A stretch of 34,824 bases of DNA. Source: Azovibrio restrictus. GTDB lineage: Bacteria > Bacteroidota > Bacteroidia > Chitinophagales > Chitinophagaceae. Position 1 is the first letter of the stretch. Each line of letters begins with the position of its first letter. Both the position numbers and the translations under genes were made by a program. Below, piece by piece: positions 1-23,299 of the stretch. The notes beneath the pieces were generated by a model. It was not told the origin of the DNA and did not search any database. It saw only the letters and a list, made by a program, of their open reading frames with translations. The stretch covers positions 1 through 34,824 of the forward strand of contig JANLJF010000084.1 of assembly GCA_029255605.1 (NCBI GenBank), read 5' to 3'.

Positions 1-12
1 TGACATCCGTCA
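1..12. promoter_or_regulatory. Isolated Crp/Fnr-like box at the window edge
   Basis: TGAC-ATCC-GTCA, a full match to TGAY-N4-RTCA, just past the stop of queD. If active it would serve a gene to the left of the window, which is not visible. Confidence 0.35.
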
Positions 13-3914: not shown

Positions 3915-4625
3915 CTAATCGGGGAAATTGGATATATCGGCCAACCTGCGAATGTCTGTAACTTCTATTTTACGGCCGTGTGTGGAAAGAATGCCCTCCT
4001 GCCTGAATTCTGTAAGTGTCCTGGCTACGTTTTCCCTTGTTGTGCCGGCCATGTTGGCAATATCATCACGAGAAACCCTTATCAATACAGGTTGTCCATC
4101 CGCCACGCTTCTTTTAAATTTCTCCCGTAAAATAATCAGGGCGATGGCAATACGTTCCTTTACTGGCCTTTGGGCAAATGCAGATACATTATTCGTAAAA
4201 ACGGTAAACTCATGACTGAGCACTTTCAGCAGCATTTTGGAAAGGTTGGGGGAAGTGGTAATAACTTCGAGAAAATCGGCGGCGGGTATATAACTTAATA
4301 CACTCTCCTCCAAGGCTGCGGCAGCATCGGGGTAGCACTCGTCTGCCAATACCGCGTGGTAGCCAATAAATTCTCCGGCACCTGCTACATAAAAGATATG
4401 TTCCTGCCCTTCATTACCGATCTTATATTTTTTTACCATACCCGATTGGATAAAATATATCCCGGTAGCCATAGCACCTTCTCTGAAAATCACATCCCCT
4501 TTCTGATAATGCTCTTCCCTGGCATGCATCATTAATCGGGCCTGGTCGGCATCACTAAGTTCCATCAGTATAGACCTGGATTGGAAATCCCATTGGTCGA
4601 TAGGGAAAATGCCATTCAAACTCAT
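3915..4625 (-). CDS. Crp/Fnr family transcriptional regulator 1
   Basis: 236 residues with a cyclic-nucleotide-binding-like beta barrel (about 20-130), a dimerisation helix (about 130-172) and a C-terminal winged helix-turn-helix (about 184-222). The recognition helix contains RENVAR (197-202), which keeps the Arg-Glu-x3-Arg pattern that lets CRP read the TGA core. There is only one Cys (about 97), so it cannot carry an Fnr-type four-Cys Fe-S cluster. The effector pocket is not CRP-like enough to claim cAMP. Its gene sits among many TGAY-N4-RTCA boxes, and it is my preferred candidate for reading them. It is divergent from a second Crp/Fnr gene across 34 bp, so promoter sequences must overlap coding DNA. 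Confidence 0.9.
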   Translation of the reverse strand: MSLNGIFPIDQWDFQSRSILMELSDADQARLMMHAREEHYQKGDVIFREGAMATGIYFIQSGMVKKYKIGNEGQEHIFYVAGAGEFIGYHAVLADECYPDAAAALEESVLSYIPAADFLEVITTSPNLSKMLLKVLSHEFTVFTNNVSAFAQRPVKERIAIALIILREKFKRSVADGQPVLIRVSRDDIANMAGTTRENVARTLTEFRQEGILSTHGRKIEVTDIRRLADISNFPD

Positions 4626-4659: not shown

Positions 4660-5283
4660 ATGAATATCCTTGATGACATATCAGAATTCAAATCTTCTCC
4701 CGAACTGGTTGCAAAACTATATCAATACAGTTTACAAAAAAGCTATCCTGCCGGCACCGTAATACTCAACGAGAATGCGCATATACGCTCCATACCCATT
4801 GTGATGAGTGGAACGCTGAAAGTTATACGGACAGATGAAGATGGCCGCGAGTTATTACTATATTATATAAAGGCCGGCGAAAGCTGCATCATGTCTTTTC
4901 TGGGGGGGTTGCACCATGAAACGAGCAAAGTAAAAGCCGAAGTGGAAGAAGAAGCAGAGATACTTTTTCTTCCTATGGATAAGGTGAGCCTCTTTATCAA
5001 AGAATACCCTCAATGGCTCGATTACATATTTCGCCTATACCATAAGCGATTCGAGGAATTGCTGGAAATAGTAAATGCTATCGCTTTCAAAAAAGTAGAT
5101 GAACGGTTAGTGAGTTTGCTGTACAAAAAATCAGAGCTGGCTAAATCTAATGTTATTACCATTACGCATGAACAATTAGCGGGTGAATTGGGAACAGCAC
5201 GCGTGGTGGTTTCCCGCCTGCTGAAACAACTGGAAGAAAACGGTGTTGTACGGTTAGGCAGAAACAAAATAACGCTTGTATAA
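4660..5283 (+). CDS. Crp/Fnr family transcriptional regulator 2
   Basis: 207 residues with an N-terminal effector barrel (about 15-110), a long dimer helix (about 112-145) and a winged HTH (about 168-205). The recognition helix reads ARVVVSR (180-186). It keeps the Ser-Arg pair of Fnr-like proteins but has Val where the DNA-reading Glu usually stands (compare E-x-x-S-R in Fnr), so its operator may differ from the classic one. It has a single Cys (C76) and no Fe-S motif. The next genes downstream are the rhodanese/thioredoxin operon on the same strand, after 322 bp. Control of that operon is plausible by context but unproven. Confidence 0.9.
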   Translation: MNILDDISEFKSSPELVAKLYQYSLQKSYPAGTVILNENAHIRSIPIVMSGTLKVIRTDEDGRELLLYYIKAGESCIMSFLGGLHHETSKVKAEVEEEAEILFLPMDKVSLFIKEYPQWLDYIFRLYHKRFEELLEIVNAIAFKKVDERLVSLLYKKSELAKSNVITITHEQLAGELGTARVVVSRLLKQLEENGVVRLGRNKITLV

Positions 5284-6750: not shown

Positions 6751-6816
6751 TGAGCGAAATCAGGTTTCCCTCTAATCATGATCATAACAATTGGGGGAAC
6801 CACCCATTTATCTTTG
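6751..6816 (+). promoter_or_regulatory. Crp/Fnr-box promoter of the YtxH gene (variant spacing)
   Basis: Perfect -7 element TATCTTTG at 6809-6816. Box TGAG-CGAA-ATCA at 6751-6762 (one base off the TGAY core), and 22 bp downstream a half-box TAAT-CATG-ATCA at 6773-6784. The proximal centre is 30.5 bp from the -7 T, one more than at the other promoters. Predicted start is near 6821. Confidence 0.5.
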
Positions 6817-8297: not shown

Positions 8298-8681
8298 CTA
8301 CATCCAGTGTGTAGCAAACCGGTTAAACTCATGCCTTAAATCATTCACAATAGTTGCCTCCTGCTGATACCTTTCATCAAGCAACTCATGTTGTTTCAGC
8401 AAATCGGCCTCTACGTACCCGGCCTTAGAATCAGAAGCTTCGCGGGCAAGAGTAGCTACGTAAGCTTCTATATCATGATTAAGGCGGTCCAACTGGTCGG
8501 CTTGTACTTTGAACTGGTTCTCATAATGCTCAACCTGCGGCAGCATGTCTGCATTAGTATTCTTGCCGGCTATTTCGGTTAACCTCTTTTTCAATATTTC
8601 TATCTCTTGCTGATAAAAAGATGTGGCCCGAAGCCAGTCGTTGTGGCGGTTATTGATATGCGTAATACTAATTTTTTTCAT
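8298..8681 (-). CDS. Hypothetical cytosolic coiled-coil protein
   Basis: 127 residues from the ATG at 8681; the frame runs on to 8765, but that extension crosses the promoter. The protein is almost wholly helical and charged, with heptad-like stretches at about 16-38 and 45-100, and no membrane segment. I recognise no family. It lies 102 bp downstream of the universal stress protein on the same strand and has its own tandem Crp/Fnr-box promoter. A small structural or adaptor role under stress is possible, but nothing in the sequence proves it. Confidence 0.75.
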   Translation of the reverse strand: MKKISITHINNRHNDWLRATSFYQQEIEILKKRLTEIAGKNTNADMLPQVEHYENQFKVQADQLDRLNHDIEAYVATLAREASDSKAGYVEADLLKQHELLDERYQQEATIVNDLRHEFNRFATHWM

Positions 8682-8699: not shown

Positions 8700-8764
8700 C
8701 AAACTTAAACTGTAAAAGAAAAGTGACTGCTGACTTGTGTCAACATAGATAGTGAGACAAATCA
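8700..8764 (-). promoter_or_regulatory. Tandem Crp/Fnr-box promoter of the coiled-coil gene
   Basis: Clearest example of the layout. Perfect -7 element TAAGTTTG on the - strand (8707 down to 8700). Proximal box TGAC-TTGT-GTCA at 8731-8742, centre 29.5 bp from the -7 T. Distal box TGAG-ACAA-ATCA at 8753-8764, exactly 22 bp further. Predicted start is near 8694, leaving a leader of about 13 nt. Confidence 0.7.
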
Positions 8765-9597: not shown

Positions 9598-9661
9598 CAA
9601 ATTAGCTTCAACTGACTCGTAGACCAATGATCAAACAAGCGCAATAAACTGATTAAAATCA
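9598..9661 (-). promoter_or_regulatory. Crp/Fnr-box promoter of the universal stress protein gene
   Basis: Perfect box TGAT-TAAA-ATCA at 9650-9661. Twenty-two bp nearer the gene, at 9628-9639, only one half is kept (TGAT-CAAA-CAAG). Its centre is 29.5 bp from the T of TAATTTGC (9604 down to 9597), a degenerate -7 element. The full box would therefore sit near -63.5 and the half-box near -41.5. Confidence 0.5.
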
Positions 9662-9707: not shown

Positions 9708-9772
9708 CTATGCAAATCAGTCTGAACTATGACCTCAATCATCTATTCAGTATAGTACTACTGCTTTCTTTG
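9708..9772 (+). promoter_or_regulatory. Crp/Fnr-box promoter of the BON gene
   Basis: Box TGAC-CTCA-ATCA at 9730-9741, with TTTCTTTG (9765-9772, one mismatch to TAnnTTTG) starting 29.5 bp from its centre. A half-box CTAT-GCAA-ATCA lies 22 bp upstream at 9708-9719. Predicted start is near 9777, giving a leader of about 75 nt. Confidence 0.6.
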
Positions 9773-11094: not shown

Positions 11095-11159
11095 TGACAG
11101 TTGTCATGTATTGTTTTGACGGGAAATAGCAGTTTTTAGCTTCCATTAAAGCAGCTTTG
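11095..11159 (+). promoter_or_regulatory. Crp/Fnr-box promoter of the lipoprotein gene
   Basis: Perfect box TGAC-AGTT-GTCA at 11095-11106, and 22 bp downstream a half-box TGAC-GGGA-AATA at 11117-11128. The half-box centre is 29.5 bp from CAGCTTTG (11152-11159), a -7 candidate with one mismatch. This is the same full-box-then-half-box arrangement as at the universal stress and ELWxxDGT genes. Confidence 0.55.
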
Positions 11160-17260: not shown

Positions 17261-17325
17261 CAAAACTATATTGGACGATACCACCCTGCAATGACCCGAA
17301 TCAGTAAGTATGGGAATACCTGTCA
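17261..17325 (-). promoter_or_regulatory. Crp/Fnr-box promoter of the DUF1003 gene
   Basis: Perfect -7 element TAGTTTTG on the - strand (17268 down to 17261). Box TGAC-CCGA-ATCA at 17292-17303, centre 29.5 bp away. A half-box GAAT-ACCT-GTCA lies 22 bp further at 17314-17325. Predicted start is near 17256, with a leader of about 18 nt. Confidence 0.68.
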
Positions 17326-17359: not shown

Positions 17360-17424
17360 TGACTGGTGTCAGATACCTATCTGATATACATCATCCGGAA
17401 AACACAAACACATCGTTATTTTTA
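17360..17424 (+). promoter_or_regulatory. Tandem Crp/Fnr-box promoter of the duplicated unknown gene
   Basis: Two perfect boxes, TGAC-TGGT-GTCA at 17360-17371 and TGAT-ATAC-ATCA at 17382-17393, with centres exactly 22 bp apart. TATTTTTA (17417-17424, one mismatch to TAnnTTTG) starts 29.5 bp from the proximal centre. Predicted start is near 17429, about 50 nt before the ATG. Confidence 0.68.
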
Positions 17425-23234: not shown

Positions 23235-23299
23235 CTAAATTAAATGCCTGCGCTACATAGAAATATATTCAATATCATTAATCTATATGACTGGTATCA
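23235..23299 (-). promoter_or_regulatory. Crp/Fnr-box promoter of the ELWxxDGT gene
   Basis: Perfect box TGAC-TGGT-ATCA at 23288-23299. Twenty-two bp nearer the gene, a half-box at 23266-23277 reads TGAT-ATTG-AATA on the - strand. The half-box centre is 29.5 bp from the T of TAATTTAG (23242 down to 23235), a -7 candidate with one mismatch. Confidence 0.55.

Follow-up and report, generated by a model that had tools for sequence, protein, structure and literature searches.

A regulator of the Crp/Fnr type appears to bind as two dimers, at a fixed step of 22 bp, before stress-type genes in this uncultured member of the Bacteroidota and in many of its relatives. The box followed here, by pattern searches and by reading of 20-kb stretches, is the palindrome TGAY-N4-RTCA, whose TGA and TCA halves, related by two-fold symmetry and 6 bp apart, form the core of a Crp/Fnr-type operator. 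In the window, that is, the whole 34.8-kb stretch of DNA analysed, the box occurs 15 times against 2.45 expected, and none of 100 shuffles reached 15. Across the whole 3.27-Mb genome there is no enrichment of single boxes (200 vs. 179 in the reversed control). Since the genome-wide count is near the control, the boxes are concentrated in the window contig and a few others (C59, C123, and C147), and bare box counts are no evidence.

Eight pairs of full or partial boxes at a 22-bp step had been listed in the sequence-only reading, and all 16 start positions were found again in the sequence (Table 1). Both copies are full in two of the eight (8731/8753 and 17360/17382), the stronger copy is distal in four (Usp, lipoprotein, ELWxxDGT, and YtxH), and proximal in two (BON 9730 and DUF1003 17292). 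The description of the proximal copy as only a half-site in the four distal-strong promoters is right for three; the proximal copy of YtxH is near-full (5/6). A 44-bp pair, proposed for the VAO gene, is weak, with a promoter element of only 4/6 and a degenerate middle position; it was left out of the pair count and found no support as a two-step version of the 22-bp spacing. The proximal copies lie mostly 23 bp from a TAnnTTTG-like element (24 bp for YtxH; the Usp element is poor, 4/6), which places them near -41.5 relative to the start predicted from that element.

Table 1. Boxes, promoter elements and regulator genes, with positions in the window unless a locus is named.
Feature	Position	Strand	Basis
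Distal box TGATTTGTCTCA, centre ~-63.5, pair before P0003	8753..8764	-	reading of sequence, orthologue comparison
Proximal box TGACACAAGTCA, centre ~-41.5, P0003 promoter	8731..8742	-	reading of sequence, orthologue comparison
TAAGTTTG, -7-type element, 23 bp from P0003 proximal box	8700..8707	-	promoter-element search
P0003, target gene, 127-aa protein	8298..8681	-	relatives: homologues beside or in operon with RR-Crp gene
YtxH promoter, distal box, full	6751..6762	+	
YtxH promoter, proximal box, 5/6; TATCTTTG 24 bp downstream	6773..6784	+	
Usp promoter, distal box, full	9650..9661	-	
Usp promoter, proximal half-site CTTGTTTGATCA	9628..9639	-	
BON-domain gene promoter, distal half-site	9708..9719	+	
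BON-domain gene promoter, proximal box, full	9730..9741	+	
Lipoprotein-like gene promoter, distal box, full	11095..11106	+	
Lipoprotein-like gene promoter, proximal partial box TGACGGGAAATA; CAGCTTTG 23 bp downstream	11117..11128	+	
DUF1003 gene promoter, distal half-site	17314..17325	-	
DUF1003 gene promoter, proximal box, full; TAGTTTTG at 23 bp	17292..17303	-	
Gene 17482 promoter, distal box, full	17360..17371	+	
Gene 17482 promoter, proximal box, full	17382..17393	+	
Gene 23215-21584 promoter, distal box, full	23288..23299	-	
Gene 23215-21584 promoter, proximal partial box TGATATTGAATA	23266..23277	-	
Further 22-bp pair, distal box; proximal partner TGACATACGTTA just left of the window, on contig C147 before Crp/Fnr gene	1..12	-	
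P0001, Crp/Fnr-family regulator, candidate binder	3915..4625	-	
P0002, second Crp/Fnr-family regulator	4660..5283	+	
Receiver-cNMP-HTH_Crp fusion genes	L046:6207-7265, L048:10461-11519, G000:C116:17095-18150		

The 22-bp step is the sole strongly enriched step and lies far above chance. Over 121 genomes, 798 pairs were counted at step 22 against 38 in the reversed control, and the source genome alone holds 18 against five. Twenty island stretches, some of them picked for holding pairs, contain 39 perfect pairs at step 22 and at most two at other steps; the island stretches of the source genome, partly picked for such pairs, contain nine at step 22 and 0–3 elsewhere. Because of this selection, the count of 39 is given no weight in the argument. 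When named genomes were scanned, only five loci were returned, all of them in uncultured Bacteroidetes assemblies. At G000:C19:88524-88558, a box pair with step 23 instead of 22 precedes a partial promoter element.

The position of the boxes relative to the core promoter was determined with any second box ignored. In 15 genomes, boxes TGACNNNNRTCA were scanned for gaps of 18–48 bp to TAnnTTTG; among the 122 matches listed, 37 gaps measure 23 bp and 21 measure 45 bp, with a mean of 1.5 elsewhere. A class II promoter carries a Crp/Fnr-fold dimer at -41.5 (PMC7192510), and the 37 matches at 23 bp correspond to a site centred at about -41.5, with the start inferred from the element only. TTTG at the -33 distance is seen in just 5 of 53 proximal-anchored promoters, which fits activator dependence.

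The two positions were also examined from each side. Thirty promoters from six relatives, picked by their proximal box alone, carry a perfect TGA-N6-TCA exactly 22 bp upstream in 13 cases (z 6.4) and a perfect second box at none of the other offsets from -90 to +60. A signal at offset +41 in this set was discarded as an artefact, in which the promoter TTTG supplies the TG of the box. The second site thus lies upstream at a fixed helical phase, as in tandem (class III-like) Crp promoters. Conversely, selection on a box followed after 45 bp by TAnnTTTG, leaving the proximal position unselected, gave 47 promoters vs. none in the reversed control. In 37 such distal-anchored promoters, the proximal position keeps TCA in 29, TGA in 16 and both halves in 14, and the TCA half is nearly absent at control offsets; the class of promoters with a full distal and a weaker proximal box is therefore real.

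The upstream DNA of 30 homologues of P0003, a protein of 127 aa that has no Pfam match, was read for conservation of the pair. The arrangement of a distal box, a 10-bp spacer, a proximal box, a 23-bp spacer and TAnnTTTG is exactly repeated in the window genome, in a relative at 99%, and in homologues at 55–58%, 44–50%, and down to 33–36% identity, including those of another family (L119 and L122). The sequence-only reading had named absence of the 22-bp partner from orthologous promoters as evidence against itself; the geometry is instead kept down to 33–36% identity. Where a promoter is recognisable, the proximal box is full in nearly all orthologues and the distal box partial in many, the partial distal copies usually retaining ATCA on the promoter side. 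The more distant homologues L113, L116, L118, L120, L121, and L123–L125 lack the pair or lack boxes.

Same-face tandem binding is the best explanation of the 22-bp step. The earlier proposal that both dimers lie on one face of the DNA has good support, 22 bp being the only strongly enriched step and one conserved in orthologous promoters. One dimer would sit at about -41.5, replacing a recognisable -33 element, and another would abut it, centred near -63.5 and on almost the same face, since 22 bp corresponds to some 2.1 helical turns and to roughly the length of one Crp footprint. Both dimers may recruit RNA polymerase, the proximal one in a class II-like manner and the distal one via alpha-CTD or via its neighbour, and dimer–dimer contact could make one full site plus one half-site enough. 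The binder would mainly be a REC-cNMP-HTH_Crp response regulator (hereafter RR-Crp), fed by a neighbouring histidine kinase. We consider it reasonably probable that these promoters depend on an activator and hold adjacent twin operators of the Crp/Fnr type, with RR-Crp as the main binder and touching dimers that jointly recruit RNA polymerase. A fuller version falls a little short of an even chance and is offered tentatively. In it, a response regulator under the control of phosphorylation, its output arm being of the Crp type, would bind as two dimers side by side, always 22 bp apart; a full site plus a half-site would form the cooperative unit, its preferred half facing the promoter; and several families within one order of Bacteroidota would share this arrangement as a regulon-wide promoter rule.

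Weak copies are found at either position, and a full site combined with a half-site is recurrent in either order, which makes dimer–dimer contact likely. Cooperativity of the two dimers would fit this pattern; the rescue of a weak proximal site by a strong distal one may also fit, but covers only one of the two arrangements seen, the opposite one being common as well. At box position 8, A is favoured in distal boxes (26/41 vs. 11/46 in proximal boxes, p 2e-4), which also carry ATCA in 36/41 (proximal, 29/46), and the linker after the distal box is T-rich. The linker and these slight base differences would also be compatible with two distinct proteins, or with alpha-CTD bound in the gap between the dimers.

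RR-Crp, an unusual fusion protein, is the strongest candidate for the binder and the probable switch of the paired promoters. The protein comprises 352 aa with receiver, cNMP-binding, and HTH_Crp domains (PF00072 + PF00027 + PF13545), and the source genome has three copies (C59, C116, and C123). With a receiver, an output domain and a HisKA/HATPase kinase immediately upstream, it has the make-up of a two-component response regulator. The C59 copy, like those examined in two relatives (G005 and G010), has the kinase gene directly upstream, and the kinases of relatives contain a PAS domain. The kinase beside the C59 copy (L046:7262-8416) has an N-terminal receiver domain where relatives carry PAS. 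Fusions of receiver, cNMP-binding, and HTH_Crp domains are widespread in the order.

Genomes with a full-length RR-Crp hold a median of seven pairs vs. one in those without (p 9e-13), and the association persists when the comparison is confined to the same family (p 2e-7), both values being uncorrected for phylogeny or genome size. Around 30 RR-Crp genes fetched regardless of boxes, 121 kb contain 17 step-22 pairs where ~0.2 are expected, an ~80-fold excess. A minor step-48 peak occurs around RR-Crp genes (L236–L265; six pairs vs. 0–1 at most other steps). In G010, the genes for a P0003 homologue, the kinase and RR-Crp lie in this order behind one tandem promoter, which leads one to expect positive autoregulation. 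A P0003 homologue adjoins the RR-Crp gene in at least ten other relatives, and tandem pairs precede both the C123 copy of RR-Crp and the C147 Crp gene. Even so, 4–8 pairs occur in some genomes that lack RR-Crp. The source genome has at least five Crp/Fnr-type genes, two of them inside the window (P0001 and P0002), so the binder is not fixed.

The number of such genes allows another reading, in which the two sites serve different Crp/Fnr paralogues, e.g., RR-Crp at one and an ordinary Crp (P0001 or the protein encoded on C147, for instance) at the other, and integrate two signals. The distal preference for A at position 8 and for ATCA speaks for it, but the two boxes have the TGA-N6-TCA core in common, their modest differences may be an effect of position, and genome G060, with a single full-length RR-Crp, still has 52 pairs; we regard this division of labour as unlikely, at about one chance in five. 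Somewhat less probable again is that the boxes act singly, at -41.5 (class II) or at -63.5 (class I-like), with the other copy a redundancy or remnant. Each position alone does yield a distance peak, and 9 of the 30 proximal-anchored promoters match at no more than three of six letters at -22 and so are without a second copy. Against this stand the proximal TCA that accompanies most full distal boxes and is nearly absent at control offsets, and the conservation of the pair in distant orthologues.

Divergent promoters that share one spacer, with one box per direction, account for three loci (G010:C7:283048-283143, its G014 copy, and G005:C93:19147-19242), at which each box is proximal for one direction. 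The G010 locus has an ftsH gene on one side. As a general explanation this is very improbable: most pairs in the window and in the proximal-anchored set show a promoter element on just one side and precede a single gene. That a short palindrome has clustered by chance or through low complexity might be suggested by the shortness of the core and by the genome-wide single-box count near the control, but step 22 alone is strongly enriched with controls near zero, and spacing and conservation together refute it, leaving a negligible probability.

Promoters with tandem Crp/Fnr sites are known from other bacteria, and the type as such is therefore not novel. In E. coli tandem CRP designs, the second site lies upstream on the same face. 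The whiB1 promoter of M. tuberculosis, a single promoter, has two CRP sites ~21 bp apart, of which the second is repressing, and in the FNR promoter of E. coli yfiD a second FNR site ~53 bp away lowers expression. The present promoters resemble the CRP promoters of E. coli, both the class II and the tandem-site ones (Joung 1993; Tebbutt 2002; as cited in PMC4417206), in having a Crp/Fnr-fold dimer at -41.5 and an upstream same-face site, but differ from them in their one fixed 22-bp step, directly abutting sites, many promoters per genome and Bacteroidota TAnnTTTG core. With whiB1 they share a neighbouring pair of Crp sites separated by about two turns, here as a regulon-wide rule and there at one promoter; with FNR promoters such as yfiD they share the TGA-N6-TCA core geometry, whereas the spacing there is ~53 bp. 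The halves of RR-Crp match known families, namely receiver response regulators (PF00072) and Crp/Fnr proteins, each half having solved relatives such as PleD, the Crp/Fnr-family 2gau and NtcA (8h3v). Among the 60 solved chains with the best scores, not one covers the receiver and Crp parts together. In the literature, with subscription papers mostly beyond reach, we saw neither a Crp/Fnr rule of a fixed 22-bp step across a regulon nor an RR-Crp protein from Bacteroidota described, which is weak evidence of absence. We rate a fixed, regulon-wide 22-bp rule tied to RR-Crp as new relative to known tandem Crp/Fnr promoters.

Worked-out promoter codes are rare among Bacteroidota regulons. Here, DNA alone supplies a testable one, comprising a core box, the -7 distance, the tandem step, a target list and a candidate kinase/RR-Crp pair. 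Such a code would allow a stress-type regulon to be annotated in many genomes, and the promoters form a large natural set for asking how two Crp-type dimers divide their work.

The window itself starts within the promoter of a third Crp/Fnr gene, which lies on C147 (L049:13543-14289) and encodes 248 aa, and the pair at window positions 1–12 and G000:C147:14342-14375 (L049) spans the contig junction. C147 and the window contig C84 are adjacent: their ends match at 106 of 111 bases, and the order is the same in G011. MbnP-like and MauG/cytochrome c peroxidase genes (L049:11696-13458) lie downstream of the C147 Crp gene, and at these genes C147:13503-13545 holds a box with a good TATACTTTTG promoter.
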